In this document: positions 33,305-62,947 of the stretch, piece by piece
How the letters are laid out: each line of letters begins with the position of its first letter
Position numbering within the stretch: the stretch's first letter is position 1
Assembly (NCBI GenBank): GCA_022457155.1
Contig: JAJGOT010000059.1
Coordinates: 1,932,001 to 1,996,000, forward strand
Direction of reading: 5' to 3'
DNA: 64,000 nt
Source: Cladopsammia gracilis
Lineage: Eukaryota; Cnidaria; Anthozoa; Scleractinia; Dendrophylliidae
Notes under the pieces: generated by a model
The model's input: the letters and a program-made list of their open reading frames with translations, nothing else
What the model was told of the DNA's origin: nothing
Database searches by the model: none
Program-made: the position numbers and the translations under genes

Positions 33305-36300
33305 AATACACTACAATCCAGTTCAATCCCATCCCATTCTACCCTATTCAGTCCATTTCAATCCCATCCCATTCAAACCTATTCAATCCAGTTCAATACC
33401 ATCCCATCCTACCCTATTCAATCCAGTTCAATCCCATCCCATTCTATCCTATTCAATCCAGTTCAATCCCATCCCATTCTACCCTATTCAATCCAGTTCA
33501 ATCCTATCCTATTCTACCCTATTCAATTCAGTTCAATCCACCCCATTCTACCCTATTCAATGCAGTTCAATCTCATCCCATTCTTCCCTCTCCAATGCAG
33601 TTCAATACCGTCCCATTCTACCCTATTCAATGCAGTTCAATACCATCCCATTCTACCCTATTCAATCCAGTTCAATCCCATCCCATTCTATCCTATTCAA
33701 TCCAGTTCAATACCGTCCCATTCTACCCTATTCAATGCAGTTCAATACCATCCCATCCTACCCTATTCAATCCAGTTCAATCCCATCCCATTCTATCCTA
33801 TTCAATCCAGTTCAATACCATCCCATCCTACCCTATTCAATCCAGTTCAATCCCATCCCATTCTACCCTATTCAATCCAGTTCAATCCCATCCCATTCTA
33901 CCCTATTCAATCCAGTTCAATCCTATCCTATTCTACCCTATTCAATTCAGTTCAATCCTATCCTATTCTACCCTATTCAATTCAGTTCAATCCTATCCTA
34001 TTCTACCCTATTCAATGCAGTTCAATACCATCCCATTCTACCCTATTCAATGCAGTTCAATCTCATCCCATTCTTCCCTCTCCAATGCAGTTCAATACCG
34101 TCCCATTCTACCCTATTCAATGCAGTTCAATACCATCCCATCCTACCCTATTCAATCCAGTTCAATCCCATCCCATTCTATCCTATTCAATCCAGTTCAA
34201 TACCATCCCATCCTACCCTATTCAATCCAGTTCAATCCCATCCCATTCTACCCTATTCAATCCAGTTCAATCCCATCCCATTCTACCCTATTCAATCCAG
34301 TTCAATCCTATCCTATTCTACCCTATTCAATTCAGTTTAATCCTATCCTATTCTACCCTATTCAATTCAGTTCAATCCTATCCTATTCTACCCTATTCAA
34401 TGCAGTTCAATACCATCCCATTCTACCCTATTCAATGCAGTTCAATACCATCCCATTCTACCCTATTCAATGCAGTTCAATCCCATCCCATTCTACCCTA
34501 TTCAATGCAGTTCAATACCATCCCATTCTACCCTATTCAATCCAGTTCAATCCCATCCCATTCTACCCTATTCAATGCAGTTCAATCCCATCCCATCCTA
34601 CCCTGTTCAATGCAGTTCAATACCATCCCATTCTACCCTATTCAATCCAGTTCAATCCCATCCCATTCTACCCTATTCAATCCAGTTCAATCCCATCCCA
34701 TTCTACACTATTCAATCCAGTCCAATCCCATCCCATTCTACCCTATTCAATGCAGTTCAATACCATCCCATTCTACCCTATTCAATGCAGTTCAATCCCA
34801 TCCCATTCTACACTATTCAATCCAGTCCAATCCCATCCCATTCTACCCTATTCAATCCAGTGCAATCCCATCCCATCCTACCCTGTTTAATGCAGTTCAA
34901 TACCATTCCATTCTACCCTATTCAATCCAGTGCAATCCCATCCCATCCTACCCTGTTCAATGCAGTTCAATACCATCCCATTCTACCCTATTCAATCCAG
35001 TGCAATCCCATCCCATTCTACACTATTCAATCCAGTTTAATCCCATCCCATTCTACCCTATTCAATCCAGTTCAATCCCATCCCATTCTACACTATTCAA
35101 TCCAGTCCAATCCCATCCCATTCTACCCTATTCAATCCTGTTCAAACCCATCCCATTCATCCCTATTCAATCCAGTCCAATCCCATCCCATTCTACCCTA
35201 TTCAATTTAGTTCAATACCATCCCATTCTACCCTATTCAATCCAGTCCAATACCATCCCATTCTACCCTATTCAATCCAGTCCAATCCCATCCCATTCTA
35301 CCCTATTCAATCCAGTTCAATCCCATCCCATTCTACCCTATTCAATCCTGTTCAATCCCATCCCATTCTACCCTATTCAATCCTGTTCAATCCCATCCCA
35401 TTCTACCCTATTCAATCCTGTTCAATCCCATCCCATTCTACCCTATTCAATCTAGTTCAATACCATCCCATTCTACCCTATTCAATCCAGTTCAATCCCA
35501 TCCCATTCTACACTATTCAATCCAGTCCAATCCCATCCCATTCTACCCTATTCAATGCAGTTCAATACCATCCCATTCTACCCTATTCAATGCAGTTCAA
35601 TCCCATCCCATTCTACACTATTCAATCCAGTCCAATCCCATCCCATTCTACCCTATTCAATCCAGTGCAATCCCATCCCATCCTACCCTGTTTAATGCAG
35701 TTCAATACCATTCCATTCTACCCTATTCAATCCAGTGCAATCCCATCCCATCCTACCCTGTTCAATGCAGTTCAATACCATCCCATTCTACCCTATTCAA
35801 TCCAGTGCAATCCCATCCCATTCTACACTATTCAATCCAGTTTAATCCCATCCCATTCTACCCTATTCAATCCAGTTCAATCCCATCCCATTCTACACTA
35901 TTCAATCCAGTCCAATCCCATCCCATTCTACCCTATTCAATCCTGTTCAAACCCATCCCATTCATCCCTATTCAATCCAGTCCAATCCCATCCCATTCTA
36001 CCCTATTCAATTTAGTTCAATACCATCCCATTCTACCCTATTCAATCCAGTCCAATACCATCCCATTCTACCCTATTCAATCCAGTCCAATCCCATCCCA
36101 TTCTACCCTATTCAATCCAGTTCAATCCCATCCCATTCTACCCTATTCAATCCTGTTCAATCCCATCCCATTCTACCCTATTCAATCCTGTTCAATCCCA
36201 TCCCATTCTACCCTATTCAATCCTGTTCAATCCCATCCCATTCTACCCTATTCAATCTAGTTCAATACCATCCCATTCTACCCTATTCAATCTAGTTCAA

Positions 36301-36555
36301 TACCATCCCATTCTACCCTATTCAATCCAGTCCAATCCTATCCCATTCTACCCTATTCAATCCTGTTCAATCCCATCCCATTCTACCTTATTCAATCCTG
36401 TTCAATCCCATCCCATTCTACCTTATTCAATCCAGTTCAATCCCATCCCATTCTACTCTATTCAGTCCAGTTCAATCCCATCCCATTCTACCCTATTTAA
36501 TCCAGTTCAATACCATCCCATTCTACCCTATTCAATCCAGTTCAATACAATACAA
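33305..36555. repeat. 35-bp minisatellite, about 93 copies
   Basis: The unit begins CCAGTTCAATCCCATCCCAT and repeats every 35 bp, with variants at a few positions (T/C in ATTCTA, CCAG/GCAG/CCTG). A higher-order copy of 23 units (805 bp) is visible: the block starting at 34776 recurs from 35581 with the same rare variants, for example CCCTGTTTAATGCAG at 34881 and 35686. Because 35 is not a multiple of 3 and no frame contains a stop, long forward ORFs (up to 731 codons) arise by chance. Confidence 0.98.
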
Positions 36556-39429: not shown

Positions 39430-40175
39430 AATATTTCACTTCTGATACCCAAATCCCAGCTGACCTCCCTTCTGATACCCAAATCCTAGCTGACCTCACT
39501 TCTGATACCCAAATCCCAGCTGACCTCCCTTCTGATACCCAAATCCTAGCTGACCTCACTTCTGATACCCAAATCCTAGCTGACCTCACTTCTGATACCC
39601 AAATCCTAGCTGACCTCACTTCTGATACCCAAATCCTAGCTGACCTCCCTTCTGATACCCAAATCCTAGCTGACCTCACCTCTGATACCCAAATCCCAGC
39701 TGACCTCACTTCTGATACCCAAATCCTAGCTGACCTCACTTCTGATACCCAAATCCTAGCTGACCTCCCTTCTGATACCCAAATCCTAGCTGACCTCACT
39801 TCTGATACCCAAATCCTAGCTGACCTCACTTCTGATACCCAAATCCTAGCTGACCTCACTTCTGATACCCAAATCCCAGCTGACCTCACTTCTGATACCC
39901 AAATCCTAGCTGACCTCACTTCTGATACCCAAATTCTAGCTGACCTCACTTCTGATACCCAAATCCTAGCTGATCTCACTTCTGATACCCAAATCCTAGC
40001 TGACCTCACTTCTGATACCCAAATCCTAGCTGACGTCACTTCTGATACCCAAATCCCAGCTGACCTCCCTTCTGATACCCAAATCCTAGCTGACCTCACT
40101 TCTGATACCCAAATCCTAGCTGACCTCACTTCTGATACCCAAATCCTAGCTGACCTCACTTCTGATACCCAAATG
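39430..40175. repeat. 30-bp minisatellite, about 25 copies
   Basis: The unit starts CTTCTGATACCCAAATCCTA and is highly uniform, differing mostly by CCTAGC/CCCAGC and CTCACT/CTCCCT. The length is a multiple of three, so the minus strand shows a 269-codon frame of IWVSEVRSAR decapeptides. No splice or start evidence makes it coding. Confidence 0.97.
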
Positions 40176-45423: not shown

Positions 45424-46245
45424 TATGGTATTTTCGACTGGACCGTTACTTTTGGGTGGACCGTTACTTTCGGGTGGGCCGTTACTTTCGGGTGGACCGT
45501 TACTTTCGGGTGGACCGTTACTTTCGGGTGGACCGTGACTTTCGGGTGGGTCGTTACTTTCGGGTGGGCCGTTACTTTCGGGTGGGCCGTTACTTTCGGG
45601 TGGACCGTGACTTTTGGGTGGGTCGTTACTTTCGGGTGGGCCGTTACTTTCGGGTGGACCGTGACTTTCGGGTGGGCCGTTACTTTCGGGTGGGCCGTGA
45701 CTTTCGGGTGGGCCGTTACTTTCGGGTGGACCGTGACTTTCGGGTGGGCCGTTACTTTCGGGTGGGCCGTTACTTTCGGGTGGGCCGTTACTTTCGGGTG
45801 GGCCGTTACTTTCGGGTGGGTCGTTACTTTCGGGTGGGCCGTTACTTTCGGGTGGGCCGTTACTTTCGGGTGGGCCGTTACTTCCGGGTGGACCGTTACT
45901 TTCGGGTGGGCCGTTACTTTCGGGTGGGCCGTTACTTTCGGGTGAGGGGTCACTTTCGGGTGAGGGGTCACTTTCGGGTGGACCGTTACTTTCGGGTGGG
46001 CTGTTACTTCCGGGTGGACCGTTACTTTCGGGTGGACCGTTACTTTCGGGTGGGCTGTTACTTTCGGGTGGGCCGTTACTTTCGGGTGGACCGTTACTTT
46101 CGGGTGGGCTGTTACTTTCGGCTGGGCCGTTACTTTCGGGTGGACCGTTACTTTCGGGTGAGGCGTTACTTTCGGGTGAGCCGTTACTTTCGGGTGGGCC
46201 GTTACTTTCGGGTGAACCGTTACTTTCGGGTGGGCCGTTTCCGTT
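45424..46245. repeat. 18-bp minisatellite, about 45 copies
   Basis: Unit CCGTTACTTTCGGGTGGG, with variants GACCGTGACTT and GGGTCGTTACTT. Open frames occur on both strands (PPESNG repeats on minus, YFRVGR repeats on plus), a by-product of unit length. Diverged units of the same motif extend left to about 45175. Confidence 0.97.
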
Positions 46246-47394: not shown

Positions 47395-47945
47395 CGGGAC
47401 GTAAAACAGCAACAGTCAAATCAACAAAACCAAAATTAGTTTCGCTTGCATGCGTGCGTATTCTCGTACCCAGATTTAATGCGATGCACAAATGAGAGAC
47501 GAAAACACGAATTATAAAAAGAAAAACGAAGGGTAAACCTTGCCTCGTTGCCGTATCCAGCACGAGTAAACAGCAACAAACAAAACCCAAATTTGTTTCG
47601 CTTCTGCTTGCATCACACCAAATCCAAGTATCGTGGGCCCAAAATTTTCTCGCTCGCATTCTCGTACCCAGATCTAACACGATGCACAAAAGTAGATACG
47701 AAAACACGGAGGAAAACAAATAGAAAAAAGGAGGGCGAACCTTAAAGGCCCATGTTCACCCAATCTGGTTTGCGCGCTTGTGTTTTTGTTTTGAAACGGT
47801 TCAATTGTTCAATGTAGCGTTATGATTGGTTGGCACGTCGATTTTTCGATTTTCCGTCTGTGCGAAAATCAGCCCGGGGCGCGCAAAGCAGATTGGGTGA
47901 ACATGGGCCTTTAACTCGTTGCCGTACCTTCACAAGTAAAAAGCC
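47395..47945. repeat. Tandem duplication downstream of the RdRP gene
   Basis: Units at about 47395-47541 and 47542-47742 and the start of a third at 47915 share AACAGCAACAA, TTTCGCTTGCAT, TTCTCGTACCCAGAT, GATGCACAAA, GAACCTT and CTCGTTGCCGTA. A MITE splits units two and three. Confidence 0.8.
47746..47910. mobile_element. 165-bp MITE flanked by TTAA
   Basis: Perfect 22-bp TIRs starting AGGCCCATGTTCACCCAATC, flanked by TTAA at 47742-47745 and 47911-47914, inserted in a tandem repeat unit just 3' of the RdRP gene. Confidence 0.93.
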
Positions 47946-47956
47946 GGGTCACGACT

Positions 47957-49117
47957 TTAAAGGGACACAAACGAAGACAAGTTCAATGAAAATTCCCATA
48001 CTTCTTGCAGGAAGGTTTTCACCTTCTGTTTTTCCGTTAAATCTCTCGGAAGCGCTACCTCTAGGGACACCTCCCATCGCGGAAAGATCTTTTTTCTGAA
48101 TACTCCTACTTCCTGAGCTGGTCTGGAATATTCCGACACCTCATCAACATACACTGTCAAGCCGGACAAGAAACCCTCTCCTGCTGTCGCTCGTGTAAAT
48201 TTTGTAGATTTGATGAAGCGAATAAGACGTATATCTTTCCACAGATCTTCCCGAACTTCAAAAGGTTGAGACTGCGCTTGATTACCAGCTTCCAACACTC
48301 GCTGGTAACGAGCGTACTTTGTACCGTGGATGTCGCGTAGCTGGAGTTCATAACGGGACTGCAAAAGAAAGCGTACATCGGTTTCCCAGCCATCCAGAAT
48401 GACGTCTTCCTGTTGCTGGGAGCCATCTTGGATGACGTTATGGTTTTGGCGCATGACGTCTTCATGTACCAGGTGCGGCATTAGGTCAACAAGTACATGG
48501 CCACTGTCTTGGATGGCGTCGTTTGGGTAAATTACGCCACCACGTGCCTGAGCATCTCGATTGACGTCATGATTTGGGCGTGGTTGCCAGGTTCTCTTCA
48601 CATCAACCATACACCAGCGGAGGTTTGGAAACTTGACGTCGATGAAACGGAGTTCCTTATCGAGTCGGACGTAAAATTCAACACCGTCATCACTTGGACA
48701 AATGTCCACATTGTATTTCTCTGTAGGGGTGGTGTTAGGATGGAATCTATAAGAGCGAAGAAATTTCTTCACTCTGTCTGGGGAATGCACAGCAGTATAA
48801 AATGAACTCCTCGAAGGATTTGCTCGTTTACGCTTCGTTCTTCTGTTGCCTTCGCTGTCTTCAGTGCGTTGAAGTCGCCGTCTCCTTCTTCGAGCTCGTT
48901 CTTGTTCTTCGTTGGCGTAGGACACTTCATTAGGAACTGTACGCGGCCTGCCCTGTTGCTTAGCAACCTTCCGCTTATTCGTCCTCAGCATTGCAATGGA
49001 GATGGGTTCACCGTCTTCCAGCAACTCGTGTGGTATACTAAACAAATAGACCCGCCCAAAATGGACAGCAAATTCAAGACGACCATGGATCTGCGGATCG
49101 AAATCTCTCTCAACAAC
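47957..49117 (-). CDS. Exon 8: C-terminal region of unknown family, stop codon
   Basis: 1161 bp, residues 2436-2821 and TAA at 47959-47957. It begins VVERDFDPQIHGRLEFAVHF after acceptor TTTCTTTAG. A very basic stretch at about 2510-2533 (RRRRRRLQR, then RRTKRKR) could be a nuclear localisation signal or RNA contact. The rest is a mixed alpha/beta-looking segment with several WEV/W-rich pieces that I do not recognise. No poly(A) signal is obvious close downstream; ATTAAA occurs about 480 nt beyond the stop (minus strand, near 47477). Confidence 0.82.
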   Translation of the reverse strand, partial: VVERDFDPQIHGRLEFAVHFGRVYLFSIPHELLEDGEPISIAMLRTNKRKVAKQQGRPRTVPNEVSYANEEQERARRRRRRLQRTEDSEGNRRTKRKRANPSRSSFYTAVHSPDRVKKFLRSYRFHPNTTPTEKYNVDICPSDDGVEFYVRLDKELRFIDVKFPNLRWCMVDVKRTWQPRPNHDVNRDAQARGGVIYPNDAIQDSGHVLVDLMPHLVHEDVMRQNHNVIQDGSQQQEDVILDGWETDVRFLLQSRYELQLRDIHGTKYARYQRVLEAGNQAQSQPFEVREDLWKDIRLIRFIKSTKFTRATAGEGFLSGLTVYVDEVSEYSRPAQEVGVFRKKIFPRWEVSLEVALPRDLTEKQKVKTFLQEVWEFSLNLSSFVSL

Positions 49118-52100
49118 CTAAAGAAATAAAAGAGATCCTCTCTTTGAAAACTAAGAAAACACCTAGTAAATTTGTCTTTTAAAGTAATGCTTATGATAGT
49201 AACTTATTCCTGTAGTGTCTTAAACGACGCACTACAGAAGATACTTCGTTCCCGTCTTTACACTGAACCCTTTTACTCTCAGAGTCAATTATGGAGACAT
49301 GTAGTGTAGTTCTAACTTTTGAGTCTGTTAACGAAATCCTATGATGTGACCATTCAAATGAAACCTCTTCAGTAGTACTTTTGCATGGTGCTATTTGTTT
49401 AACCCATTCGCTCCTACACCGGCCAAAACCGGCCGTACAAGACTCCACTGCTTTAAAAACTTGCAACTTTCTCAATCGCGCGAACATTGCCTTAACTAGC
49501 AGTTGTGAACATTGACTAGAAAGTTCCTCAAATTGAGATACCCAATAAACACAAAAAAGTCAGCGATTTTTGCAGAATACCAGCGTTTGAATTTAGACAA
49601 TAACAAAAATGACCGTTTTTAACGTCATAGAAAAACAACAAAAATCATGTTTTTGCCTTTAGTTTTTTTTATTCAAATCATCGTGGCAAACCCAAAAGTC
49701 AACATTCACAGCAAAATTCAGTCCTTGTCCTAGCTTAACAGTGAACTTTTTTGCTCTTATTCGTTGCTCGAGCCGAGCTACAGCCTCTCGTTCTAGTACA
49801 TGCTGACCTTGCCTCGATTTTCAACATCACCACCGCACTGCATGCTGGGAAATAGCCACAATTTTTGACAGCGTTCCTTCCGTCCTCCACACATTTCATA
49901 TTTATACTAAGTCCACAGCCACTCCGACCCACCGCCGAAATTTCACGCTTGCTGTGTCCTTTAGTGGTCGCAACTTCCAAAATATGCCGCGGGTCGAGAA
50001 ATTCATCCAGGCTACTTCGTTTCGGGGAGGCCATTTTTCCAGTTCAACGAGCAACGAGCCAAATTCGTTAACGAAGTACCACACCTAACTCGCTTCATTG
50101 AGAAAGTGGCCTCCAAACTACCTTCAAGCTTAATGACGCTCATCAGGCAGCTACTAAAGATGAAAAATGGCTGTGAACTTATCAAAAATCGCAGATAATT
50201 CATATTGGACCCTTTATTGCAATTCAACGAAGCAAAATGACGTCACAATGACGTTTCCAGTAAACTTGAGTGTTTTAGAACAGCAGCACTTTCGATGGTA
50301 ACTTTAAATATGGAGTCATGAAAGCCCATGGGGCGTGTGTATCCAGAAAATCACTCAAAAACGTAAAAATTCTCAGGAGTGAATGGGTTAACAACATTTT
50401 ATAAAATGGAATTTGGAATTTTTGTTGAATTTATATTTTAGGCACTCTTGGGAATTAAAGGGTTTATGAACTACGAGACCCATAACCAGACGCACTACAA
50501 AGGTTTTTAAACCGTGTTTGTCAACTTTTCTGTCAACTGGTCAGTACGTCTCGGATTACAGACTCGCTATGATACCGAACTTTGCTTCCTTTAGTACAAC
50601 CCTTATTATTCTTTATAAAATGCTCAAGGAAATGCGCGCGCTATGATTGGTTAAACCGAGTTCATTATAACTCGACAAGGCACGCGCGTGACGTAAGATT
50701 CATTATAACCGTTTTTATTTTATAAAAGAAATAAAAAAACTTGTTCCTCGTGCATTATTGAGTTATATAAGCACTTGGGGGTTTTTAAGAACACTCGAGA
50801 AGTGCGAGAAGCACTCGCCTTTGGCTCGTGCTTCTCTGCACTTCTCTCGTGTTCTTAAAAATTCCCGCGTGCTTATATAACTCAATAATGCACTCGGCGC
50901 GTTTTTTATTTCTTTAATAAACCGTTTTTCCTTCCTCGCTCTTCCGTGTAATTTTAACAAATGGGAGTGCATTTAAGTACCCGGATATGGCCCGAACACT
51001 ACATTCGTGTGATTATTGTATACGAGAAATGTCAACTCACTTTAAGTTGCTGAAAGAATTTCTCTGTGAAGCGTCGAAACGTATACTCGTTGAAAGTGGG
51101 ACTCGTCACCAAGGCAACATGACGTGCGAGGTTATCGTGTGTCTGATGACAAGGGCCGTCATATGGTGTCAGTGTCACGTGATCATTTTTGTTTTGACTG
51201 CCTTCAAACAACAATAGACTAGCATCTTCCACGAAGCAGCCACTCATCAGCGACACACGGTCACGAGACGCCTGTACAGCCATTCTCCCCAGCTCTCTCT
51301 CCACCGCACGAATCGCAGGTTCACTTCCTTTCACCTCAAGAATGGCTGAATTGCGAGACTGCGGGAGCCTGGGGCGAATGATGACACTCCTCGCTCCAGT
51401 CTTCCTCGCGATTTCTTGAGCCTTGCTTTTCTCGACGCTCGCCAAGAAGGAAGAAAGGAGAGGCGATAGGTAAATTACATTGTAATCTTCAGAACCGCTT
51501 ATGGCCAACATTATTTGTACATCTCCATACAACGCTAACAGCTGATACGCACGCCGCATGTGCTCCTTTACCAGGTCCACGTGCTCCTTGTCCAGCAGAT
51601 CTGTAAATTTGCGCGAGCGCAGAATACGCGCCAGGGGGTCTGGGATCTCTCTTTCAAAGGAAGTTTCGTGCGTTCGAAAAAACTCCAGGAGGATTTCACC
51701 AAGCTGGGTAGTGTTCAGCTCCTCATGGGGGAGCTGTGCGTCATTTGTGTCCACACCAGAAGCTGCATTAACAACTCTTTCCCACCTTATGTACACGTCA
51801 CCATCGGTCACTTTTCCTTGTAAAATGTGTAGCTTCTCTGTCGTAATATGTTCTTCATTGAAATTTTGAATTTGTCCCTTGCGCATGCACTGAACAAGAA
51901 GCAGGGAGGCCAGTAGGTTTGATGTGTTTCCAGAACCAGCTGCGTTGCGTGACAGTCCTGTCACGTAACACCATCGGTGAATAAGACGGAGGACCAACAA
52001 GAGACTGGGATAGGACTTCATGTAGCTGGACAACAAAATGGCCACGGACAAACTGTTTGGGGAAAAACTCACATCGCAATTCCTTTCGGTGTTTAACTTT

Positions 52101-55100
52101 TTTGTGGGCTTCTTGCAAACCAGGACCTAAAAAGAATTGAATTTAGGTCAATACACGTAAAAAGAAGGAAGTTATTCTCGTCCCCAGTGCCACGCCTTCG
52201 TCCTAGCCGGTGGAGCTTCAGTACAATAAAGGAGGTGGGCCAAGAGAGAGGATACCGCCTCTCTTAAACGACTACCTCTTAACCAAAATAGAACATTTTA
52301 TTTTCAGTTAAACGCTCTTGTAAGCGCACACCTCTCGTAGATGACCGTAAACACTTTCAACGCATGTGGATCGAATTGTTTCTTTGTTCTTTCTTTTTTT
52401 CAGGTAAGCAATCATATACCCGTATTTGGATGATACTACAGATGGAAATGGAATGGTGTTATAACGTTCAACTCTGATAAGTTGAACATAAAACGTTTTG
52501 CTCCTCGTAACAAAATGTTTCTGCCTTAATTATATACACACATCACGTTAGACACATAATGTAAAATCGTGTTGTTACCCATTAACTTAAAACTTCCCTT
52601 TTGTTCAGGCCTCGGTTGTTCAAAAGGTGGATAGTGCTACCCACCGGATAAATAACTATCCAGTGGATAACACAATTGGTTTTGCTAATACCAATCCACT
52701 GGATAGTGATTTATCCGGTGAATAGCGCTATCTACCTTTTGAACTACTGGCGGCAGATGTATTTGTAATAGAGTGACATGGATTAACGTGTTTTACATCT
52801 GCACGTTGTTTCACCTGTATTTCGATTGAATGCACTCAAATAAAAAACGAAAATTCCAATTGAACGCGACTTCCTGCAAATCGCCAAAATTAATTCCCAG
52901 TAGGGAAAAACAGTCTTTCCAATCGCAAAAAATAGGTTCCGCAAAACACATAAAATTGCTCATCCGCAAAATTAAACTCCCGCAAAAATTTAGAAACATA
53001 ACATAGTGACGTAAATTTTTGCGGAGAAAATGTTTGGAACTTTTTTTTGCGGTTCGTGAAAAAATCCACAAAAATCGCAAAAATTAGAACCAGCAAAAAT
53101 TTAGTGCCACACGATACTATATTTTATGATGTTAGACGTTTTGTATCTTAAAGATACTAAGGGCTCCTAGAGAACATCAGGGAAGTCATATGATTCAAAA
53201 TAAAACTCTCTGTGATATGACATCACCAAGGCGACCTCCTCCCGTAAGCGACCATCTTGGCTTGGTATTAAGGGTGGTCGTTTGTGGGATGTTTGACAGT
53301 AATTGAGAGAAACATCGTGCTTACCGGAAAATTCTTTTTGCCAACAAGACTAACTTTATGGAAGAGATTTGTCGCTTCTTTATTCTCTCCTATTTGAATT
53401 TGATCCTCCTTCAGGTGTGGTATCAGCATCTCGAGTGACGTCACTTGATCTTGAATTGGAATATCACACACTTTCGGTAGATCCACAGGTTTCCCACCCA
53501 AAGTGGTTGTCTTCAGTGCCTGGGTGTGATTTTTATCAGGAATGCCGCTTTCGTCCGGTAAAACCTCCGGCTCCACACACAAGGTGGTTCTCTCGGGTAC
53601 CTTTGCTTCACCTTCAGTTGGGATGTTGCCAACTTCCTGCACAGGAATCCCACGCAAACTCTGGGCTCCCTGTGGAAGAATACAAAGATCCAGATCTGAC
53701 TTCTCATGAAGCAGAAGCGTGGCTGAAGAGCCAATCATAGTGACCGACAGCTTGGGTTGAACGAGCTTCAGATGGCGAGATATTGAGTTCTTTGTTCTAA
53801 CTCTTTCTTTGAAGTCTTCTAATAACCAGATCTTCTCTTCATTGAACAGTCTGACTAAACTGTCACCAACCGTTGTGCTAACGTCAAGGGCCAGGAACGA
53901 ACCAGGTGGTTCTTTGTGGTTTTTGATCGCTAGCATGACGTCGTTAACAAACCATGGAAAACCGAGTAATCGCTTCGGGCGACCTGGGTCTGAGTCGTCC
54001 GCATGATCGTGCGCATGCGTGTAAGCCACAGTGTACCAAGCTGAGGCTTTGAGAAGCATTTCATTCGTGACCTGTGCATTGTCCAACAACTGCTGACCAT
54101 CAACACTGAATTCGTTAAAAAATTCGCGCCGGATTTCGGACCGCATCGCGAAGAGCAGGTCGCCAACAGTTGCTGCAATCTCGGTTTTGTCTTTACGCTG
54201 GCGATTTCGAAGCTTCAGAAAGCAGCCGGTGAACACTTCAGCCTCAGTTTCAATGCCATACAGACGCATCAGTGCCTCGATTTTGTCACGGTACTTCTGG
54301 TACAACTCTCTCGCCTCTTCCATGTACCTGTCGTTTCCAGGAAGAAAAAACGACTTGTCGACTCGCATTTTCTGGCTGTACTTCTCAGACGCCACGTCTT
54401 GAAACTTCCGACAACGACGATATAGCTTTCCTAACACCTTTTCTGACGGATAGCTCGGTTTATCACTCTTCATCATAAAATCAGGGCATTCTTTGTTGGA
54501 ACCGACTCCTGCCATACTTGGCCACTTTCCCGTCTTGGGAGCATCAACTGCTATAGAATGTATTTCTGCCAAATGTAAACAGATCTTAGATTCAACTCCA
54601 CCCTCTTCACAGTCCGCTAAAGCTTTATGCGCGTTGTCAATCACTCCTAACTGATCACTCCGGATGTAATCGACCACGAACTTGGTCATGTGGGTTGCTG
54701 TGATTGGTTCATCTTGTTCTTTCTTTTCCTGGGCTTGGTAGTCCATTGGCGGGAAATTCGGTTTCCTTGGTAACAAGCTCTTATTCCAGCAAACGAAGTA
54801 GAGATCCCCATCCAGGTCGCCACCTACGATAAAAATACTAAGATTAAAATACTGATTCTCCTTTCGGATTGGTATATATTATGTTTGACGTAAGTTGTGA
54901 GAATTTACTAGTACATCCCCAACCCCTCCAAGTCTCCACCTACGATCAAAAATACTAAGATTAACATAATGATTTTCTTTTCGGATTGGTTTATATTTTG
55001 TTTGACATAAGTTGTGAGAATTTACTAGTACATCCCCATCCCCATCCCCATCCAAGTCGCCACCAATGATAAAAAACTAAGATTAAAATACTGATTCTCC

Positions 55101-58100
55101 TTTCTGATTGGTTTATATTCTATTTGACGTAAGTTGAAAGGCAGGAAATCTACGGGAGGTGGGACAACGATTTTCAAGAAGCAGTACGGTGCACAAAACA
55201 AAGGCAAAGAAGGCTAGAAAGACAGGGACAGGAAGTGGGGGGAGCCAAGGGCACAGGAGGCAAACGTTTTTAACCCCTCCCACTCCCCCCTCCCCCCTCC
55301 CCCTACCCCACCCACCTCCCTCCGCATTTCGTGTCACAACTTACCTGCCATCTCATTAGGATGGGGCCGTTCTCCTTGACGCGGGAAAACCACACAGTCC
55401 ACAAGATGACTGAGCCCGGGGACTTCTACAGCCTCGAGTTGGCGGACATCTCCCGGATGTAAGCAGGGATTTCTGGTCACCACCACAGGTCCCTTGAGGA
55501 CAAGTTTTTCGTTTTTGTTGAACTGATCCTCGCGGTCTGTACGAGTTGAAACTGCAGAATACTGAACGAAAACCTAATGCGATGAAAGGGTATTGAAAAA
55601 AAATGCGTGAAACACGGAACATTGCGCGAAAATCTAAGGTAATAAAACGGTATTGAAAAGAAACAAAAAAAAAAAACAATGCGTGAAACATGCATCTCTC
55701 TTTACTAGCATTAAAGGATTTGACCCATTTTTTCGTCTAAAAACTCTAGATATAAATTTTGCAGTTGTGATTTTTAAAGCGATCTTGTTTTACAATGTGT
55801 AAGTTAATCTTCAAACAAACGAGAAAAGAAGTAAAGTAAAAAACAGATTTTTGCAAAGCATTTTGAACATACTACGCGAACATGTGTAACATGTGTACGT
55901 TCGCGAGTGGGTCTAAAACGGGGTACATATTTTAGAACCCGTCACCAGAGGGATAATTGACGTACGACGCCCAAGTCTTGCTGCGCTTAACGTTGAGAAA
56001 CAGAACTGACTAGTGTTTCAGCTTGTGTAATGGTGATGAACTAAAAAACATAACATCTGGTACTTTCCTTAGCAGCCGATTGGACTGTGTTATCGCTGAG
56101 GACATGAGCAGGCAATTCTCGCATATTAGATTTTCATTCATAAAAATTTATTACAGAAGAAACAAACCTGTCCTGGTTTTAATACACCTATTTCGTCCAT
56201 GACACCCATCATCAAACGTGCTTCCGCTGGCGGTAGAAGGATGCGGGCTCGGGAGAGAAGTTCGTTGATGTGATTTCTATACATGGCGACAAGCAAGGAT
56301 TTAAAGAACGGTTCAGTTGTTAGCGGTATCCCGGAGCTCGATAAACTGTGGTAGGACACGCCCATCTTGGCCCCAGTTCCCAGCAACTCAACAGCGTCGT
56401 GTTCATTAACCAGCATGCCTGGAAAAGAAAGGAAAGGTAAATTTTTCTGAGAAATTGAGACTCACAGAACACATATTAATCTTGCCCAAGTCTCCACATC
56501 ACATTTTTATTATTATTTTAGATGTTTTATTTTCTTCTTTTTTTTTCCTAGTCGGGCGTTTTTAACCGAGCCTTTGGCTCTGGAGACTTAGGCAACCACT
56601 CTCCACGTTTTCCACGTTAAATTAAGTTACTACTACTATTACTACAACTTTCACATGTTAAATAATTATACATGGAACTAATAAAGCAAGGCTGACTGTA
56701 CAACTGACTTCTTCAGGGTATTCCCTGAAGAAGTCAGGCCATGCCTCTAACGAAATATTGGAAAGAATATACACCAAATTGAAGAAACGTTGACTCGTGA
56801 AAAGCATAAACCATGAACGATGAGACCGAATGGGATTCTGGGTAGGCAGCATTGGCAAGCTAGTAATATTCTATTTCTTGATAATCAAGATGTTTTCTTT
56901 GTTTGAGACTTTTAAGAGCATGATTTATGCATCCTGTGTTAATATAATGTATATTCTGTCACAGACGAAGATTACATTTTCCAACTTCCCAGTAAACCTT
57001 TGGGTCGCATCGTTTATGGTTTATGCTTTTCACCCGACAAAGTTTCTTCAATTTGGTGTACTTATAATCCCAGTTGTACAGCCAGTCTTGCTTTATTAGT
57101 TCCTTGGTATTTATATCAAATTTGCTGCCAAGATCCACCAGGATCCGACGCTTTTGCATTGTCCGTTGGCCCTTGCAGAAATTGACAAATTTTACATGAC
57201 ATCATCGAGCCCGGCATCACGCAATTTTCACGCACCACATGTTTCTTCAGCTTACCTGCCAGTCTGTCCAACATTTTGCTCTGCAGATCAATGAAAACTT
57301 CATCCGGGACACCCAGATTAGATAGCAACATGATGACCTGGTGGTTCAGATAAACGACTTGGGGACGAGATGTCTGTAGTACTTCGAGTCTGCGGTGGAA
57401 GCTATCAAATTTGTGCATGCTTGGACGAAAGAAGGCCTGTTTGCCTGAAAGTGTGGGATCTACTGCAAGGACACCTTTAAAGCCAGCGAATCGAATTTGA
57501 AAGGCGGATGGGATAAAGGGCTTGGCAATTTTCTTGACCACCTACAATAAACCAAGAAATAGAAGAATAGAATTTGTTATTTTAAATAAAGGTGATGTTG
57601 GGTTTCCACTTTCGAGTAATTTTTATGCGCGCACCGACAAAACATTTATTCCAATAATCCATGGCCACCATGTTACCTCTTTGACAAGCTCCTGTGATAT
57701 TCTGCCAACTCCATCAGAAAAGCAGTATTTCTGGTCAGCTGTTTTGACGTCGTCTTCTACGTCATGTAAAGTACCTTGACTGATCTCAATGCCCACGGAG
57801 TCTATCGAAGTAGAAAAGCACTGTCCCATGCGAGCCATGTACGAAGCCACACACCTGACATTGAAAAAGTACACACACACACGGCAAATAAGCTTTCATC
57901 ATGCTCAAATATATCTATTTTGCTAAAAAACGGTGACGATTATGCGAGATCGGGGAACACTTATCTTTAAATTCAGCGACTAAGCACGTTTAGGAACATA
58001 CGTGTGGACTCGCGATTGTCACGTTTAGGAAGGGTTCTAGCTTTGGTGCAGTGGTTGCCATCATGATATTTCTTTACAAAGAACTTTCCATGTTGTTTTT

Positions 58101-61100
58101 TTTCATCGAGATGTGTTAAGTGAAATAAATACGTCTTCTTATGATTTCAATGGGAAGCGAGAAATACAGACTATCCTTAATTTTTCGCTCTTTACACGTC
58201 TCTGATGTTTTAGTTCAGTTAAGGGAAGCAAAATAGTTTCAGTTGATGTTTGGGCAGAAACTAGACACGGCTTACAATTGACGCCGTTTAACTTAGTTTA
58301 GATAATCGCCGTTGGTGTCCTCCTTAGCCTCACAGTAAACAACTCAACCCTTTCACTCCCAGAGTCAATTATGGAGACATGTAGTGTAGTTCTAATTTTT
58401 GAGTCTGTGGACAAAATCCTATGTTGTGACCATTCAAATGAAACCTCTTTAGCAGTACTTTTGCATGGTGCCATTCGTTTTCAATATTTTACAAAATGAA
58501 ATCTGAAATTTTTCTTGAATTTAGTTTTTTGGCACTCTTGGGAGTTAAGGGGTTAAACAACTGGAAATCCCAAGATGAAAGTGATCATGTGTCACGAACG
58601 TGGATACAAACAATTAAATCTGAGTGCCGGACGAAAATCGAACCCATGCCTTCCGATAACAGGTCGGACGCTCAATTCTCTATTTTCGAATTGCCCATAA
58701 TACACTTTGTTTGCCCCCCAAATTTTGCATAAACTATTGTTTTGAAATGCTCTTGGGAATATGCAGTCCTCCCAAGAGCATTAACAAACAAAAGTTTATG
58801 CAAAATTTGGGGGGCAAACAAATTGTATTATGGGCAATTCGAAAATAGAGAATGCAATGGGTCAAAGAGATTTTACGGATAGCTGAGGCATTTTACTAGG
58901 TTCAAGCATAACAGACGTCCCGTATACTGCTAGGTTGAGCAATGTAGAATGCCTCAACTCTTCGTGAGTCCTCGTTGGCTCAATGGATTGGGTATCCGAC
59001 CGGTTATCGATCGTTATCCGAAGGCATTCATTCAATTCTTATCGGAGACTTAGATTTTTTTCTTAGCCCTGACGTCCGTGACATATGAACTTCCATAGTA
59101 TCATTTCTTTCCGAGCTCAAAATTTACCATCGATCTTACAAGCATTATTTAGCTGGAAATCTGCGACTTACTTGATCTGACTGAAGTTTCCCATCCATCT
59201 GCGTATGTAGTCCGGTCGAAGCCTGGGCCCGACAAACCAGCAGCTATGGCCACGAAGCTGACTGTTCGAGGACCCCAAAAAGTGAAACCGCTGACCAGCT
59301 ATCCCCAGCCCTTCATTCAATACGCGGTTAACGCCATCGAGCAGAAGATCTAAGCTCCCTCTTCCTGCAGATAGTTTGGAGAGGTCCTCGTCACGAATAC
59401 TGACACACAGGAAGTTGTCTGTTTCATAATGTCTAAGTACACGATTTTTTACCATGACTTCCGGTGGATACAGTAGTAGCCTCGTTGGTGTGATGACTGC
59501 GCGCTTTATCAGAGCACAATGACCTGGGACGAGCCTTTTTTGTAACCCGGAAGTTGACGGCTTGTTTTGGTTTAGAAACGCTTGGAGGGTCTTCTCGGAA
59601 TCACAGAATTTATCTTGCTCCAAAGCTTTCTTTAACTGCTCCAATCCTGTGCACACCACATTGGAAGGCTTGTATTGCAAAAGGTCGCTGAACATCCCAG
59701 ACACTTTACCGCGAATTACTGGATGCAATGAGACGACACTCTGCGCAGCATATAAGACGTCAAATGGTAAATCAAAAGGGAGATTTCCAGGTGGGAATCT
59801 GCCAAAGCTCTCCTTCACTCGACAATAAAATGGTTTTTTGTCGAATCTATTCTTGATTGCAGCCAACAAATGCATCAGCTGGGTTGATTCTTTGCAGGGA
59901 ATTGTAAAACAATACGTAAAACACTGGCCCCACGCATTGTCGCTGTTCAAGATATCAGGAACTCTTTCCCAGTCATTGTCAAAACTTCGGTGGAGTTGCG
60001 AAGAACGCTCGCGATAATTCGTGATTACATCCGGGTACTCGTCATCTGTCGAGAAACTGTCGGATTCCGATTCATCCAACGAGTCGCTGAAATAATCTTC
60101 GTCGTTTTCGTCATCATCTTGCAGGAAATCGTCATTGACATCTTCTTGCAGACCAAGCTCGTTGTCTACAGACTGGAACAGTCGAGGAGGGTGCTTCACT
60201 GTGAGAAACACTTTGTTCACACCAGCGTCCACGTCGCTGTCCACGACAAGGAAATCTTCGAGCTCGTGGTATCGGAGTTCCAACTTGTAATACCCTTGCG
60301 AGGTAAAAAGTATCGTTAGCATCTTCAGACTGTGGTCGAAATAAACCTGAACATTCTTCATGGTCGGTTCTGAAGGCCATTCGTATCGAAAATGGCTACG
60401 ATTGATGAACGTCCCAAGAAACATGGAATTTGCTGATAGCGAATGAAAAGAATCTTTCGCCTTGTGACGTTTCCTGGGTAGCGAGGCCTGGAGCCAAACC
60501 GGAAGTGGTTCCTCATCTCGGTTCGTCAGACACGAGCACCACTGTTCTGTCACGTGTCTTATGAACGCTTCCTTTGATCGGAATTCTTTATTGCTCTTCT
60601 CTTCGTTTGCTTGTAGTTCAAAGGCCATGTGTTTCTGTTCTGTTCCTACATTGGTCATCGCGGTGGGATGAATGTTTTTCATGGACATAACTTCGAAGTT
60701 GTTCTCCAAAAAGTTTATTACGCGTGTACAATTTTCCAGGCTTTCCAGATAATGCACCGAAATAGTTATGCGCGGGTTGAAGCGCTCGATGAAAATATTT
60801 TCATTGGTTTCTTCGTTTGAAGGAGAAGAAAAACTCGGAGTTTTTACCTCGCATCCAAATTCCTCTGCTTGTGATTCCTGTTTCTTGTTCGCCATTAGAT
60901 GTCTAATTGCTTTTTCCATGTTCCTTTCTTTAAGAGCTACATCTTCTGCTTCTTGTTTTTGCTTTTCATTGCAAATCACGACAAACTTGCTGTCGGGTCG
61001 ACGGGACGCGCGCCCGCGGGTCTGTACAAGCGCGCGTAAGGTAGCCGCGCCTTCAAAGCGGATGACCAGGTTACATACGGGAACGTCAAGACCTTCCTCC

Positions 61101-62947
61101 AGAACACTGGTGCTAATAAGAAGTTTCGTCTTGCCTGATCTGAAGCTCTGTAACAACACTTCTTGTTCATCTACCCACGCCATTCCGTCATAACTTCCCT
61201 GACCGTGGCCGACAAAAGCTTCGGGATTCAACTTTTCTTTCACTTCCGGGATAGCCCCGATCTTCGCGCATAGCTTATAAGCTGTCTTGCGCATGTTGAC
61301 AAAGATGATACCTCTGGACGTTTCATCTTGTTGCGCGCGGGAGACAAACTGCTTTATGTGCCCCACAAGAATATTATATTTGTCCGACGTGGGGAACTCT
61401 TCCTCAACCGAGATGTTGGCTAAGTTTCTAAGATCTATAAATGTGGGGTGTAATCCAACCATCTTCTTCAGGGCGCTGTCTTTTGGAGAAACAGCATGGA
61501 TAGTGCGATAAACGGATTCTCTGAGGCATTCCATTGCATGCTTGTAGCCAAGAACCTCACTAACATCCACAATACTGAGCATTTGCATTACGTGTTCCCC
61601 AGCTATCAACGTTTTGATTTTTCTTTTGTCACCATGGCAATCGTCGATCAGTCGTCTTAGCACTCCTCTAAAATTATGCGAAAACACAGGAAGTTCTAAA
61701 GCCCGTGCGTTGTCTATGAAAGCGGTCCTCAAGTGTTGAATGTGATCCTGTATGAATCTCTGGACACGTATTTGGCAGGTGTTCATGGCGGATACTGTGT
61801 CGTACAATGTATCAGGATTGTTTACATTCTCCACAAGGTCTTCTGACTCAACCGGTGTCGAAACTTCACAACTGAGGTTGTGCAATAAGTTCTGAAGCTT
61901 CTCCGTGGTTCTTTCAACAGTAGCCTCTCCGGCTGGTGACGCAGACAAACCCAGTACAACAGGTTTAAACTTGTCTTGAGTGTGGTGATAGTACTCCATG
62001 ATCTGATAATACTGATGGTTGCCATGGCAATGATGAGCCTCGTCGAAAACCAGAACAGAAATGTCAGAGAGACAAATCACTGGGTTTTTCTCTTCGGCTA
62101 AAAAATTTAAAAAAATCTGATGCGTTAAAACCAATACATCAATTTCTTGATTTGCTAATGCTTCGTGCACTGCTTTCTGTTGTGGCCCTTCCATTTCACC
62201 GACCAACGTTTCCACCCTCAAATCTGGTACCTGGGACTTTATATAGCCACTCTGTTGGTAAACCAATGGGATTCGGTCAACTAGGAACACCATCAATTTG
62301 TCCGGATTGAGCTTCTTCATACAGCTCAATACCATCGCTGCAATCAAGGTCTTACCTGAGCCCGTAGGTAAGTAGACCAGCGTGTTTCCGTGCATGGCAG
62401 ACAGGAAAAGCTCACGCTGGTAGTCCCGCGGGCGCTGGCGCGTTAAAGAATCGATTTCCCGCGAGGTATGACTAAGCCCGCTGGTGTCGCAGTAAATCAT
62501 GGGCTCGCTTGGTCGGCGAGCAGACAAACGTGTTGAACTATACGACACATTAATTACTTCAATGCCACAGCTCTTTTCAAGCCTCTCACGTACTTTCGAC
62601 AGTTTCTTCGATCTAATCTCTTCACCATTATGAACAAAGTAGACATTGTCAATCTTGTAGCAGATCAGTTCTTTCGATCCTAATCTTGTAATGTTCCCGA
62701 CGTGTTTTCCACATTGAGGCCCGCGACAATGAACTATATAAGGACAATATTGCGCGCTCTTTCCACCTCTTGAATTCTCGACCTTGGTAAGCTTTGCATA
62801 TGCCTCATCTTCTTTTCTTTGTTTCACAGCAAGATGACATTGGGATGGTGGCACAGTAGCTAACATAAGAATTTCACTTTTTGCTAGTTCTGTCCGGCAC
62901 TCATCACAATGGAGGGTGACCGAGCCCGACTGAGCCCTTGAAGCCAT
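47957..62947 (-). CDS. Fused RIG-I/Dicer-like helicase, RNA-dependent RNA polymerase and terminal nucleotidyltransferase (8 exons, 2821 aa)
   Basis: Assembled exons on the minus strand: 62947-59172, 57854-57677, 57541-57256, 56418-56168, 55573-55345, 54823-53325, 52126-51041, 49117-47957. Every junction has GT donor and AG acceptor and phases match (2,0,1,0,1,0,0). The coding length of 8466 nt gives 2821 residues plus stop. Domain order: RIG-I CTD-like zinc module (about 10-130), DExH helicase (170-690), RdRP (about 720-1870, catalytic DLDGD at 1576-1580), nucleotidyltransferase (about 1920-2290, D1950, D1952, D2091), KH-like segment (2300-2356), unknown C-terminal region (2436-2821). Families with these domains unwind dsRNA, synthesise complementary RNA and add 3' nucleotides in RNA silencing. 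The start used is the first in-frame ATG. A CAG just upstream at 62984 could be a splice acceptor, so 5' exons may be missing. The gene looks intact: no frameshift, and all expected catalytic residues are present. Fusion confidence is high, exact ends moderate. Confidence 0.9.
49403..50387. mobile_element. 985-bp TTAA-flanked piggyBac-like insertion
   Basis: TTAA at 49399-49402 and 50388-50391; ends CCCATTCGCTCCTACA and CTCAGGAGTGAATGGG. TTAA plus CCC ends fit the piggyBac group. Contains a 99-codon frame on the minus strand. The intact homologue of the host MITE in intron 1 shows the empty site. Confidence 0.88.
49735..50034 (-). CDS. 99-codon frame inside a TTAA-flanked element
   Basis: ATG at 50034 in AAAATGGCC context encodes MASPKRSSLDEFLDPRHILE followed by a Cys-containing segment. 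It lies in the piggyBac-like insertion 49403-50387 within intron 7 of the RdRP gene, on the same strand. It may be the start of a lost transposase or a captured 5' exon. Not recognised. Confidence 0.25.
   Translation of the reverse strand: MASPKRSSLDEFLDPRHILEVATTKGHSKREISAVGRSGCGLSINMKCVEDGRNAVKNCGYFPACSAVVMLKIEARSACTRTRGCSSARATNKSKKVHC
50725..50925. mobile_element. Hairpin element in RdRP intron 7
   Basis: Arms AAAGAAATAAAAAA and TGCATTATTGAGTTATATAA pair with complements at 50868-50925. The centre is GCGAGAAGCACTCGCCTTTG. Confidence 0.88.
51041..52126 (-). CDS. Exon 7: nucleotidyltransferase third aspartate, helical domain and KH-like segment
   Basis: 1086 bp, residues 2074-2435, phase 0 at both ends. 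It begins VLVCKKPTKK and reaches CDVSFSPNSLSVAILLSSY at 2090-2108, where D2091 fits the third catalytic Asp of Cid1/TUTase/Trf-type enzymes (usual form CDISF-N). YPSLLLVLRLIHRWCYVTG follows, as in the central domain of these enzymes, then AYQLLALYGDVQIML. Residues 2300-2356 (AQEIARKTGARSVIIRPR ... AILEVKGSEPAIRAVE) look like a KH fold but lack a clear GxxG loop. Acceptor TTTTTAG, donor AAA|GTGAGT. Intron 6 (52127-53324) holds a hairpin element. Confidence 0.9.
52618..52745. mobile_element. Hairpin MITE (GTTCAAAAGGTGGATAG) in RdRP intron 6
   Basis: Arms GTTCAAAAGGTGGATAGTGC and GCGCTATCTACCTTTTGAAC, with CCGGATAAAT-ACTATCCA and complement inside. I recall such GGATAGCGCTATCC hairpins from anthozoan genomes, not verified. 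Confidence 0.9.
53325..54823 (-). CDS. Exon 6: RdRP catalytic loop, RdRP C-terminus and nucleotidyltransferase core
   Basis: 1499 bp, residues 1574-2073. It opens with GGDLDGDLYFVCW. The three aspartates D1576, D1578 and D1580 are the metal-binding residues expected for a cellular RdRP. RdRP C-terminal helices follow, with LLGFPWFVNDV at about 1860. With no stop or intron the frame runs into VTMIGSSATLLLHEKSDLDL, the GS-x(n)-DxD signature of polymerase-beta-type nucleotidyltransferases (GS 1938-1939, D1950, D1952). A low-complexity linker (about 1960-2073) then separates these from the third aspartate in exon 7. Having both enzymes in one open exon is direct evidence of fusion. Donor CCG|GTAAGC. 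Confidence 0.93.
54824..55140 (-). repeat. Tandem copies of the intron-5/exon-6 boundary
   Basis: The roughly 115-bp block running from the first bases of exon 6 (encoding G-D-L-D-G-D) into intron 5 is present three times: the functional copy at 54804-54905, a second at about 54914-55030 and a third at about 55031-55140. Copy 2 has lost DLDGD by substitutions. Copy 3 still reads GGDLDGDGDGD on the minus strand but has TTG instead of the AG acceptor. Only copy 1 continues into the long open exon. Confidence 0.85.
55345..55573 (-). CDS. Exon 5: RdRP core (NPCLHPGDVR block)
   Basis: 229 bp, residues 1498-1573 plus one base. It starts VFVQYSA and carries GPVVVTRNPCLHPGDVR, VDCVVFPRQGERPHPNEMA, the block immediately before the catalytic loop in all RDR-type polymerases. 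The donor GCAG|GTAAGT leaves one G that joins the GT of exon 6 to make Gly1574 ahead of G-D-L-D-G-D. Intron 4 upstream (55574-56167) has no recognisable element. Confidence 0.92.
56168..56418 (-). CDS. Exon 4: RdRP core (PPAEARLMMGVMDEIGVLKPGQ)
   Basis: 251 bp, residues 1414-1497. It ends in MMGVMDEIGVLKPGQ, equivalent to the conserved LDETG-x-L-x-x-GQV block of RdRPs. The V that normally follows GQ is supplied by exon 5, which supports this splice. Acceptor TTTTCCAG, donor CAG|GTTTGT. Upstream intron 3 (56419-57255) contains a 290-bp hairpin element. Confidence 0.9.
56770..57060. mobile_element. MITE with TACACCAAATTGAAGAAACG ends, copy 2 in RdRP intron 3
   Basis: Same family as 36692-36983, with right end GTTTCTTCAATTTGGTGTA. 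Lies wholly in intron 3, so it would be transcribed with the gene as a long hairpin. Confidence 0.9.
57256..57541 (-). CDS. Exon 3: RdRP core (SAFQIRF and FRPSMHKF blocks)
   Basis: 286 bp, residues 1319-1413 plus one base. SAFQIRFAGFKGVLAVDP and FRPSMHKFDS, then VVYLNHQVIMLLSNLGV, are typical of the eukaryotic RdRP catalytic domain. The acceptor is TTGTAG before 57541 and the donor GCAG|GTAAGC at 57256. Intron 2 (57542-57676) is only 135 bp. Confidence 0.92.
57677..57854 (-). CDS. Exon 2: RdRP core (ARMGQCFS and DGVGRIS blocks)
   Basis: 178 bp, residues 1260-1318, completing codon K1259 with the last two bases of exon 1. It encodes ASYMARMGQCFSTS followed by YCFSDGVGRIS, both hallmark blocks of the eukaryotic cellular RdRP family (RDR/EGO-1/QDE-1). 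Acceptor is TGTCAG at 57860-57855, donor GAG|GTAACA at 57677/57676. Intron 1 upstream (57855-59171) is full of repeats listed separately. Confidence 0.92.
58348..58552. mobile_element. piggyBac-like MITE in RdRP intron 1
   Basis: Ends CCCTTTCACTCCCAGAG and CTCTTGGGAGTTAAGG, with TTAA at about 58553-58556. Closely matches 49268-50462 apart from the insertion there. Confidence 0.85.
58600..58870 (-). repeat. tRNA-like element split by a MITE
   Basis: The minus strand has GCGTCCGACCTGTTATCGGA, GGCATGGGTTCGATTTTCG and GTCCGGCAC, clearly related to 58967-59050. The 5' part of the D-arm lies on the other side of the hairpin MITE 58675-58853. Confidence 0.5.
58675..58853. mobile_element. Hairpin MITE (ATTCTCTATTTTCGAATTG) in RdRP intron 1
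   Basis: Arms of about 75 bp nearly complementary (TTTGCCCCCCAAATTTTGCA and complement). It appears to split a minus-strand tRNA-like element. Confidence 0.9.
58967..59070 (+). repeat. tRNA-like element in RdRP intron 1
   Basis: GTTGGCTCAATGGATTGG (A-box-like), anticodon stem TCCGAC-CGGTTA, then ATTCAATTCTTATCGGAGAC. Degenerate, with a duplicated piece in the anticodon arm. Confidence 0.5.
59172..62947 (-). CDS. Exon 1: zinc module, DExH helicase and N-terminal half of RdRP
   Basis: This is a single open exon of 1258 codons plus 2 nt. Residues 14 and 17 form C-x2-C and residues 74 and 79 form C-x4-C (CRGPQC), the spacing style of the zinc site in the RIG-I C-terminal domain. Helicase motifs: Walker A LPTGSGKT at 193-200, DEAH at 302-305, SAS at about 335, motif IV IIFVN at about 547, STSVLEEGLDVP at 612-623 and QTRGRASR at 642-649. 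The roughly 210-residue gap between SAS and motif IV fits the Hel2i insertion of RIG-I/Dicer helicases. An acidic Ser/Asp/Glu tract spans about 935-972. The end, with SNSQLRGHSCWF and RRWMGNFSQIK, matches the conserved N-terminal block of eukaryotic RdRPs. The donor AA|GTAAGT at 59172/59171 is followed by an in-frame stop, so splicing is required. Confidence 0.92.

Follow-up and report, generated by a model that had tools for sequence, protein, structure and literature searches.

The stretch of DNA analysed here (the window) comprises 64,000 nucleotides of a Cladopsammia gracilis contig (JAJGOT010000059.1, positions 1,932,001 to 1,996,000). Its reverse strand carries a gene of eight exons (Table 1), in which the motif sets of a helicase, an RNA-dependent RNA polymerase (RdRP) and a nucleotidyltransferase (NTase) lie within one frame. 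The gene model was built from stop-to-stop frames and simple splice scoring, with exons joined from the window DNA, and is a prediction from genomic sequence. All seven introns have GT-AG borders and consistent phases, and the joined frame of 2,821 residues ends in its single stop codon. The splice donors of exons 2 and 4 scored lowest (6.4 each), the other five between 8.8 and 12.6.

Pfam searches of single exon frames locate the helicase and the start of the RdRP in one uninterrupted frame of 1,292 residues, and the end of the RdRP and the NTase palm in another of 536 residues, so that both fusion seams are exonic. A protein from Montipora capricornis (P0001) aligns to residues 10-2820 with 63% identity and bridges all seven junctions. 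Another relative, P0006, has a frame of 2,792 residues in a contig of only 9,488 bases and is very probably a spliced transcript, because the nearest gene in the C. gracilis genome matches it in 11 pieces. A further relative, P0017, is transcript-like and has TRINITY in its name. The two middling donors, and a model derived from genomic DNA, could suggest that adjacent helicase, RdRP and NTase genes were merged on paper by exon joining. Given the exonic seams, the near full-length Montipora alignment, the transcript-like relatives and another complete gene of this kind elsewhere in the genome, we reject such an artefact as extremely improbable. The claim of an earlier, sequence-only reading that the three enzymes share one polypeptide is thus confirmed by the eight-exon model, the seams and the alignment, and the motifs PTGSGKT, DEAH, QTRGRASR, GGDLDGD, GSS...SDLD and NCDVSF are all present in the rebuilt product.

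Table 1. Features of the window, with positions counted from its first nucleotide
Feature	Position	Strand	Remarks
Whole gene	47957..62947	-	8 exons, 2,821 residues; rebuilt from DNA and a near full-length Montipora alignment
Exons 1-8	62947-59172, 57854-57677, 57541-57256, 56418-56168, 55573-55345, 54823-53325, 52126-51041, 49117-47957	-
Predicted RIG-I C-RD-like zinc domain	62543..62926	-	residues 8-135; Cys14, Cys17, Cys74, Cys79; ahead of helicase
Helicase domain 1 (DEAD)	61931..62425	-	residues 175-339; PTGSGKT, DEAH; Pfam DEAD 70.1 bits
Helicase domain 2	61001..61345	-	residues 535-649; QTRGRASR; Pfam Helicase_C 66.9 bits
RDR-family RdRP	54414..59494	-	exons 1-6, collinear; GGDLDGD at exon 5/6 junction
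TUTase-like nucleotidyltransferase (predicted)	51566..53876	-	residues about 1890-2260; G1938, S1939, D1950, D1952, D2091
Predicted KH domain	51260..51502	-	residues about 2282-2362
Predicted RESC1/2-like triphosphate-tunnel (TTM/Cet1-like) domain	47957..49117	-	exon 8, residues 2436-2821; structural match starts in late exon 7
117-bp tandem repeat	54804..55136	-	2.8 copies
21-base inverted repeat	47747-47767 and 47889-47909		perfect; bounds 163 bases
Tandem array	33314-36546		35 bp x 92
Tandem array	39436-40174		30 bp x 25
Tandem array	45439-46239		18 bp x 45

The 117-bp repeat extends the exon 6 acceptor and the GGDLDGD region into intron 5; its upstream copies have broken frames and could provide decoy splice sites. 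Directly past the stop codon, the 163-base segment bounded by inverted repeats could represent a small transposon that sits within the 3' untranslated region. Elsewhere in the window there are three tandem arrays, the largest of which accounts for a GC skew of -0.79 at 34-36 kb.

From its N-terminus onward the protein is predicted to contain a C-RD, a Dicer/RIG-I-type helicase, a PH-like part, the RdRP, the NTase, a KH domain and a RESC/TTM-like domain; the C-RD, KH and RESC/TTM-like folds are assigned by structural modelling. The sequence-only reading had the three enzymes right and missed, or merely guessed, the permuted C-RD, the PH-like and KH parts and the RESC/TTM-like end. Its Walker A, DEAH and Q-RGR motifs place the helicase in the Dicer/RIG-I type of superfamily 2, with the nearest solved chains taken through a Nematostella relative, which matches Dicer, LGP2, RIG-I, MDA5 and Dicer-related helicase chains. 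The RdRP, with its DLDGD motif, belongs by sequence to the eukaryotic RDR family (PF05183): three exon frames match the Pfam model with 84, 104 and 143 bits (cut-off 23.8), SDGVGRIS is found in the assembled product, and the Nematostella relative scores 426 bits against RNA-dependent RNA polymerase 2 chains, full-length to RDR2. The NTase palm matches the Pfam MTPAP-like model (31.6 bits, cut-off 27), and a profile of seven relatives has its best matches in TUT7, TUT4, an RNA uridylyltransferase 4 and Cid1. With GS, DxD, a third aspartate and a helical lobe, the domain belongs to the superfamily of terminal uridylyltransferases (TUTases) and non-canonical poly(A) polymerases, with an activity of this kind predicted, and the window protein retains all three aspartates.

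The modelled C-RD fold is close to DRH-1, DRH-3 and RIG-I and has four cysteines at putative zinc-binding positions, as in RIG-I-like receptors (RLRs); its Pfam score of 18.9 bits is under the cut-off of 25.6. In DRH proteins and RIG-I the C-RD follows the helicase, whereas here it precedes it. At the other end, the exon 7 and 8 frames gave no Pfam match at E 0.01. The last domain has a predicted barrel fold closest to trypanosome RESC1/RESC2, and the RESC1/2 profile PF25477 matches the window protein weakly (12.1 bits, cut-off 27; one of ten rows); among 37 related frames it matches six with E values no higher than 1, the best being 0.015. In exon 8, D247 and R249 are invariant. The metal-binding ExE of the first strand of Cet1-like enzymes is absent in all ten aligned rows, with strand equivalence judged by aligned ranges and not per residue. 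Pfam UBR1-like_wing matches on 16 of the 37 related frames (best E 0.06) were taken as chance.

The genome of C. gracilis (878-Mb assembly, 1,469 contigs) was searched for further copies. A second fused gene, of an Acropora-like type, shares contig and strand with the window gene at a distance of about 480 kb (G000 contig 1175:1479001-1500500; L015, L009, L010). It matches residues 9 to 2792 of P0006 in 11 pieces with 67-86% identity, and has the C-RD cysteines, GSGKT, DEAH, GGDLDGD and SDLDL, as well as the last domain's FGR strand. On contig 956 there is a third RdRP gene; the 18.5 kb extracted around it gave no match to the helicase, and the similarity stops at the NTase start. Further RdRP frames were found on contigs 232 and 375, and Piwi-domain exons are also present in the genome. 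On contig 232 many such frames form a cluster (G000 contig 232:2242916-2364808; L002-L008), eight of them open over 675-730 codons; seven were compared and are 27-31% identical to the window RdRP.

In order to trace the architecture, 7,976 candidates from a whole-protein search were scored and 39 proteins listed; the best 120 of 905 matches from a search with the Nematostella RdRP-NTase part, 108 of them new, brought the pool to 147 proteins. Own profiles of the eight parts were run on all listed relatives. Helicase, RdRP and NTase occur together in 32 of the 147, a number that includes isoforms, near-copies and partial records and some weak NTase matches (28 bits in Paramicrosporidium), and their order is the same in 32/32. 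The PH-like part was recognised in 25 of these proteins, the C-RD also in 25, KH in 31 and the last part in 28. The groups with this order are anthozoans, a chytrid, a rozellid, an amoeba, ulvophyte algae, liverworts and Phytophthora (for Pelomyxa, Paramicrosporidium and Phlyctochytrium, placement follows a lineage look-up), and an animal-specific fusion, as implied when the sequence-only reading presented a novel animal gene, was therefore rejected. When Pfam was run on nine of the 32, helicase, RdRP and palm were above cut-off in seven: the chytrid, two EukProt proteins, Nematostella, P0006, Pelomyxa and Riccia sorocarpa. The palm of Bryopsis P0133 fell below (24.9, cut-off 27), and that of Dendronephthya was not called. 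A separate NTase-profile search gave 87 matches, mostly short frames, 23-86% identical to the window piece; RdRP and palm were found together in 30 of them by Pfam and in 32 by own profiles.

Unrooted RdRP trees were computed with 68 rows, and with 59 once nine rows that were long or outlying, the fused P0016-P0019 included, had been dropped. A strong branch separates fused and bilaterian RdRPs from plant RDRs and unfused fungal RdRPs (support 99 with 68 rows, 100/99 with 59), and the bilaterian RdRPs form a well supported group (100/98, 59 rows) nested within the fused side. Several lancelet, bivalve and Lingula proteins consist of RdRP, NTase, KH and last domain, with the catalytic NTase residues gone and no helicase in the protein records; the listed spider, tick and echinoderm RdRPs gave no NTase match. 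DUF7752, annotated in lancelet RdRPs (P0138, P0158, P0161 and others), maps in Riccia past the palm, on the NTase helical lobe (15.4, cut-off 29), and may be a remnant of that lobe. Ulvophyte RdRPs (P0012, P0133, P0142 and P0150; Ostreobium and Bryopsis) group with the anthozoan ones (98/96). Ostreobium inhabits coral skeletons; transfer between lineages, notably to or from ulvophytes, or contamination is a possible explanation.

The architecture is likely old, because the same order of parts occurs in several distant eukaryotic groups. A single origin with later losses explains this most simply, and those animal RdRPs that lack a helicase or an NTase are best seen as reduced descendants. The branching order among the fused groups is weakly supported (67/33), distances are long, and the helicase tree unites the fused rows apart from Dicers and FANCM with a support of only 48, as might be expected if fusions had arisen independently in several lineages. 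We regard such repeated fusion as improbable, since even the small parts keep the same order from protein to protein and the RdRP and helicase trees largely agree on the same subgroups.

The catalytic residues of the NTase were counted in 37 of the 65 proteins with an NTase match, the rest being outside the tree or not covered in the palm. Among 27 helicase-bearing rows, D-D-[D/E] is intact in 17, or in 12 if only D is accepted as the third residue, and in 10 the set is lost with the domain still recognisable. Among ten helicase-less rows it is intact in one (Marchantia, whose frame begins inside the protein). Co-retention of helicase and NTase residues (Fisher p 0.008) corresponds to only two to three independent pairs on the tree, and was not taken as shown. 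The fused NTase could thus be mostly structural, holding the RdRP and the 3' RNA end and adding nothing, in a protein that would be an RdRP with an RLR-type helicase; the 10 rows without the set, and Montipora, the closest full-length relative, with H in place of the third D, fit this explanation. It is a minority possibility in our view, as the residues are kept in the window, its paralog (SDLDL), Acropora, Nematostella, Riccia, Pelomyxa, Bryopsis P0133 and the chytrid, besides the intact sets counted above.

The reading that we favour, with moderate confidence, is that of a single-polypeptide RNA copying machine, which would tail the 3' end of a target RNA, copy it into double-stranded RNA (dsRNA), and keep hold of the newly made strand at its 5'-triphosphate. 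In this scheme the template would be fed in by the helicase, and single-stranded RNA would be bound by KH. The NTase would extend the 3' end of template or product, as RDE-3 does for worm RdRPs, and a cis version of such tailing followed by copying is, by analogy, the preferred form of the proposal. C-RD and RESC/TTM-like end would recognise 5'-triphosphates or duplex ends as do the RIG-I C-RD and RESC2, which binds guide-RNA 5'-triphosphates according to PMC10201420. The dsRNA product, likely made for gene silencing or antiviral defence, would pass to Dicer or dsRNA sensors.

Several observations weigh against this proposal. The evidence on the window gene consists of sequence and models. For the KH and RESC/TTM-like domains the structure modelled was that of a related frame, P0041, rather than the window protein's, and their sequence support is under Pfam cut-offs; a ten-row profile of the last domain ranks a homeodomain (E 0.011, taken as chance) over RESC1 (0.14), and a profile made from 37 rows, covering the NTase lobe, KH and the last domain, has no match among PDB sequences. 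Catalytic NTase residues are lost in Montipora, Dendronephthya, Ostreobium, two of three Bryopsis proteins and others, so that tailing appears dispensable in some family members, and the sequence-only statement that the gene hard-wires tailing is an inference. Finally, Nematostella, which has the fusion at LOC5511133, is reported in PMC12768352 to form no secondary small interfering RNAs (siRNAs) after dsRNA injection, and the product of the fusion may for this reason, by analogy, not be siRNA.

The same source reports that three Nematostella RdRPs rise upon poly(I:C). Together with the C-RD and RLR-type helicase, and the missing secondary siRNAs, this would suit a dsRNA sensor and amplifier of innate immunity that copies viral or aberrant RNA to increase dsRNA for RLR signalling and not for siRNA. 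We think this rather unlikely, because the Pfam scan of the exon frames found no domain for signalling, and the same architecture occurs in algae, liverworts and oomycetes, which are not known to have the animal RLR pathway.

The copying machine that we favour resembles several known systems. A Dicer/RLR-like helicase before an RDR-family polymerase is published for Dictyostelium, Phytophthora, Hydra and Nematostella (PMC4791657), and the Nematostella and two Phytophthora proteins found here belong to that family, whether or not they are the paper's own. Unlike the present proteins, those are described, in the accessible text, without C-RD, KH or RESC/TTM-like parts, and 'nucleotidyltransferase' does not occur there; neither this word nor 'helicase' occurs in the main text of PMC6396948 on animal RdRPs. 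In the open-licence literature covered (subscription papers being outside its scope), no paper turned up that describes the fusion of an NTase or a RESC/TTM domain to an RdRP. Of the supposedly undescribed triple fusion, the helicase-RdRP half was already in print, Nematostella included. Comparative reviews of RNA interference (RNAi) exist and might have noted such fusions.

The sequence-only reading had likened the protein to the RNA-directed RNA polymerase complex (RDRC) of Schizosaccharomyces pombe, in which Rdp1, Hrr1 and Cid12 are separate proteins (PMC3380556). The likeness holds by analogy, as an RdRP, a helicase and a poly(A)-polymerase-family protein act together there, and fails by kinship. 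Hrr1 is the orthologue of ZNFX-1, a superfamily 1 helicase, whereas the window helicase matches the Dicer/RIG-I group, and RDRC by descent was rejected because of the different helicase family. The window NTase shares its superfamily with Cid1, the Cid protein that was compared. In Caenorhabditis elegans, RdRPs, RDE-3 and the DRH helicases are again separate proteins, unlike here. The DRH helicases function with RdRPs. As proposed for the window protein, a tailing enzyme provides the RdRP templates, RDE-3 tailing RNAs that are later copied (PMC12265681). Trypanosome RESC1 and RESC2, which go together with the TUTase RET1, likewise differ in being separate proteins, of mitochondrial RNA editing. 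PMC10201420 states that RESC1 and RESC2 have no sequence homology outside kinetoplastids. As a broader and more tentative proposal, which we put forward as possible but not probable, this branch would descend from a single giant eukaryotic RNAi polymerase, with front C-RD and rear RESC-like barrel sensing 5'-triphosphates, that unwound, copied and tailed RNA in cis. Bilaterian RdRPs would be stripped remains of it, and RESC1/2 would share ancestry with its last domain, a tie between the amplification step of RNAi and RNA editing.

Unwinding, copying, tailing and 5'-end capture, which are divided among separate proteins in yeast and worms, would be united in a single polypeptide that is conserved between distant eukaryotes, and those RdRP systems of animals that consist of separate subunits may be derived. 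The gene makes it testable whether non-nematode animal RdRPs yield small RNAs, long dsRNA or tailed RNA, and its last domain offers a lead toward relatives of RESC1/2 outside kinetoplastids.
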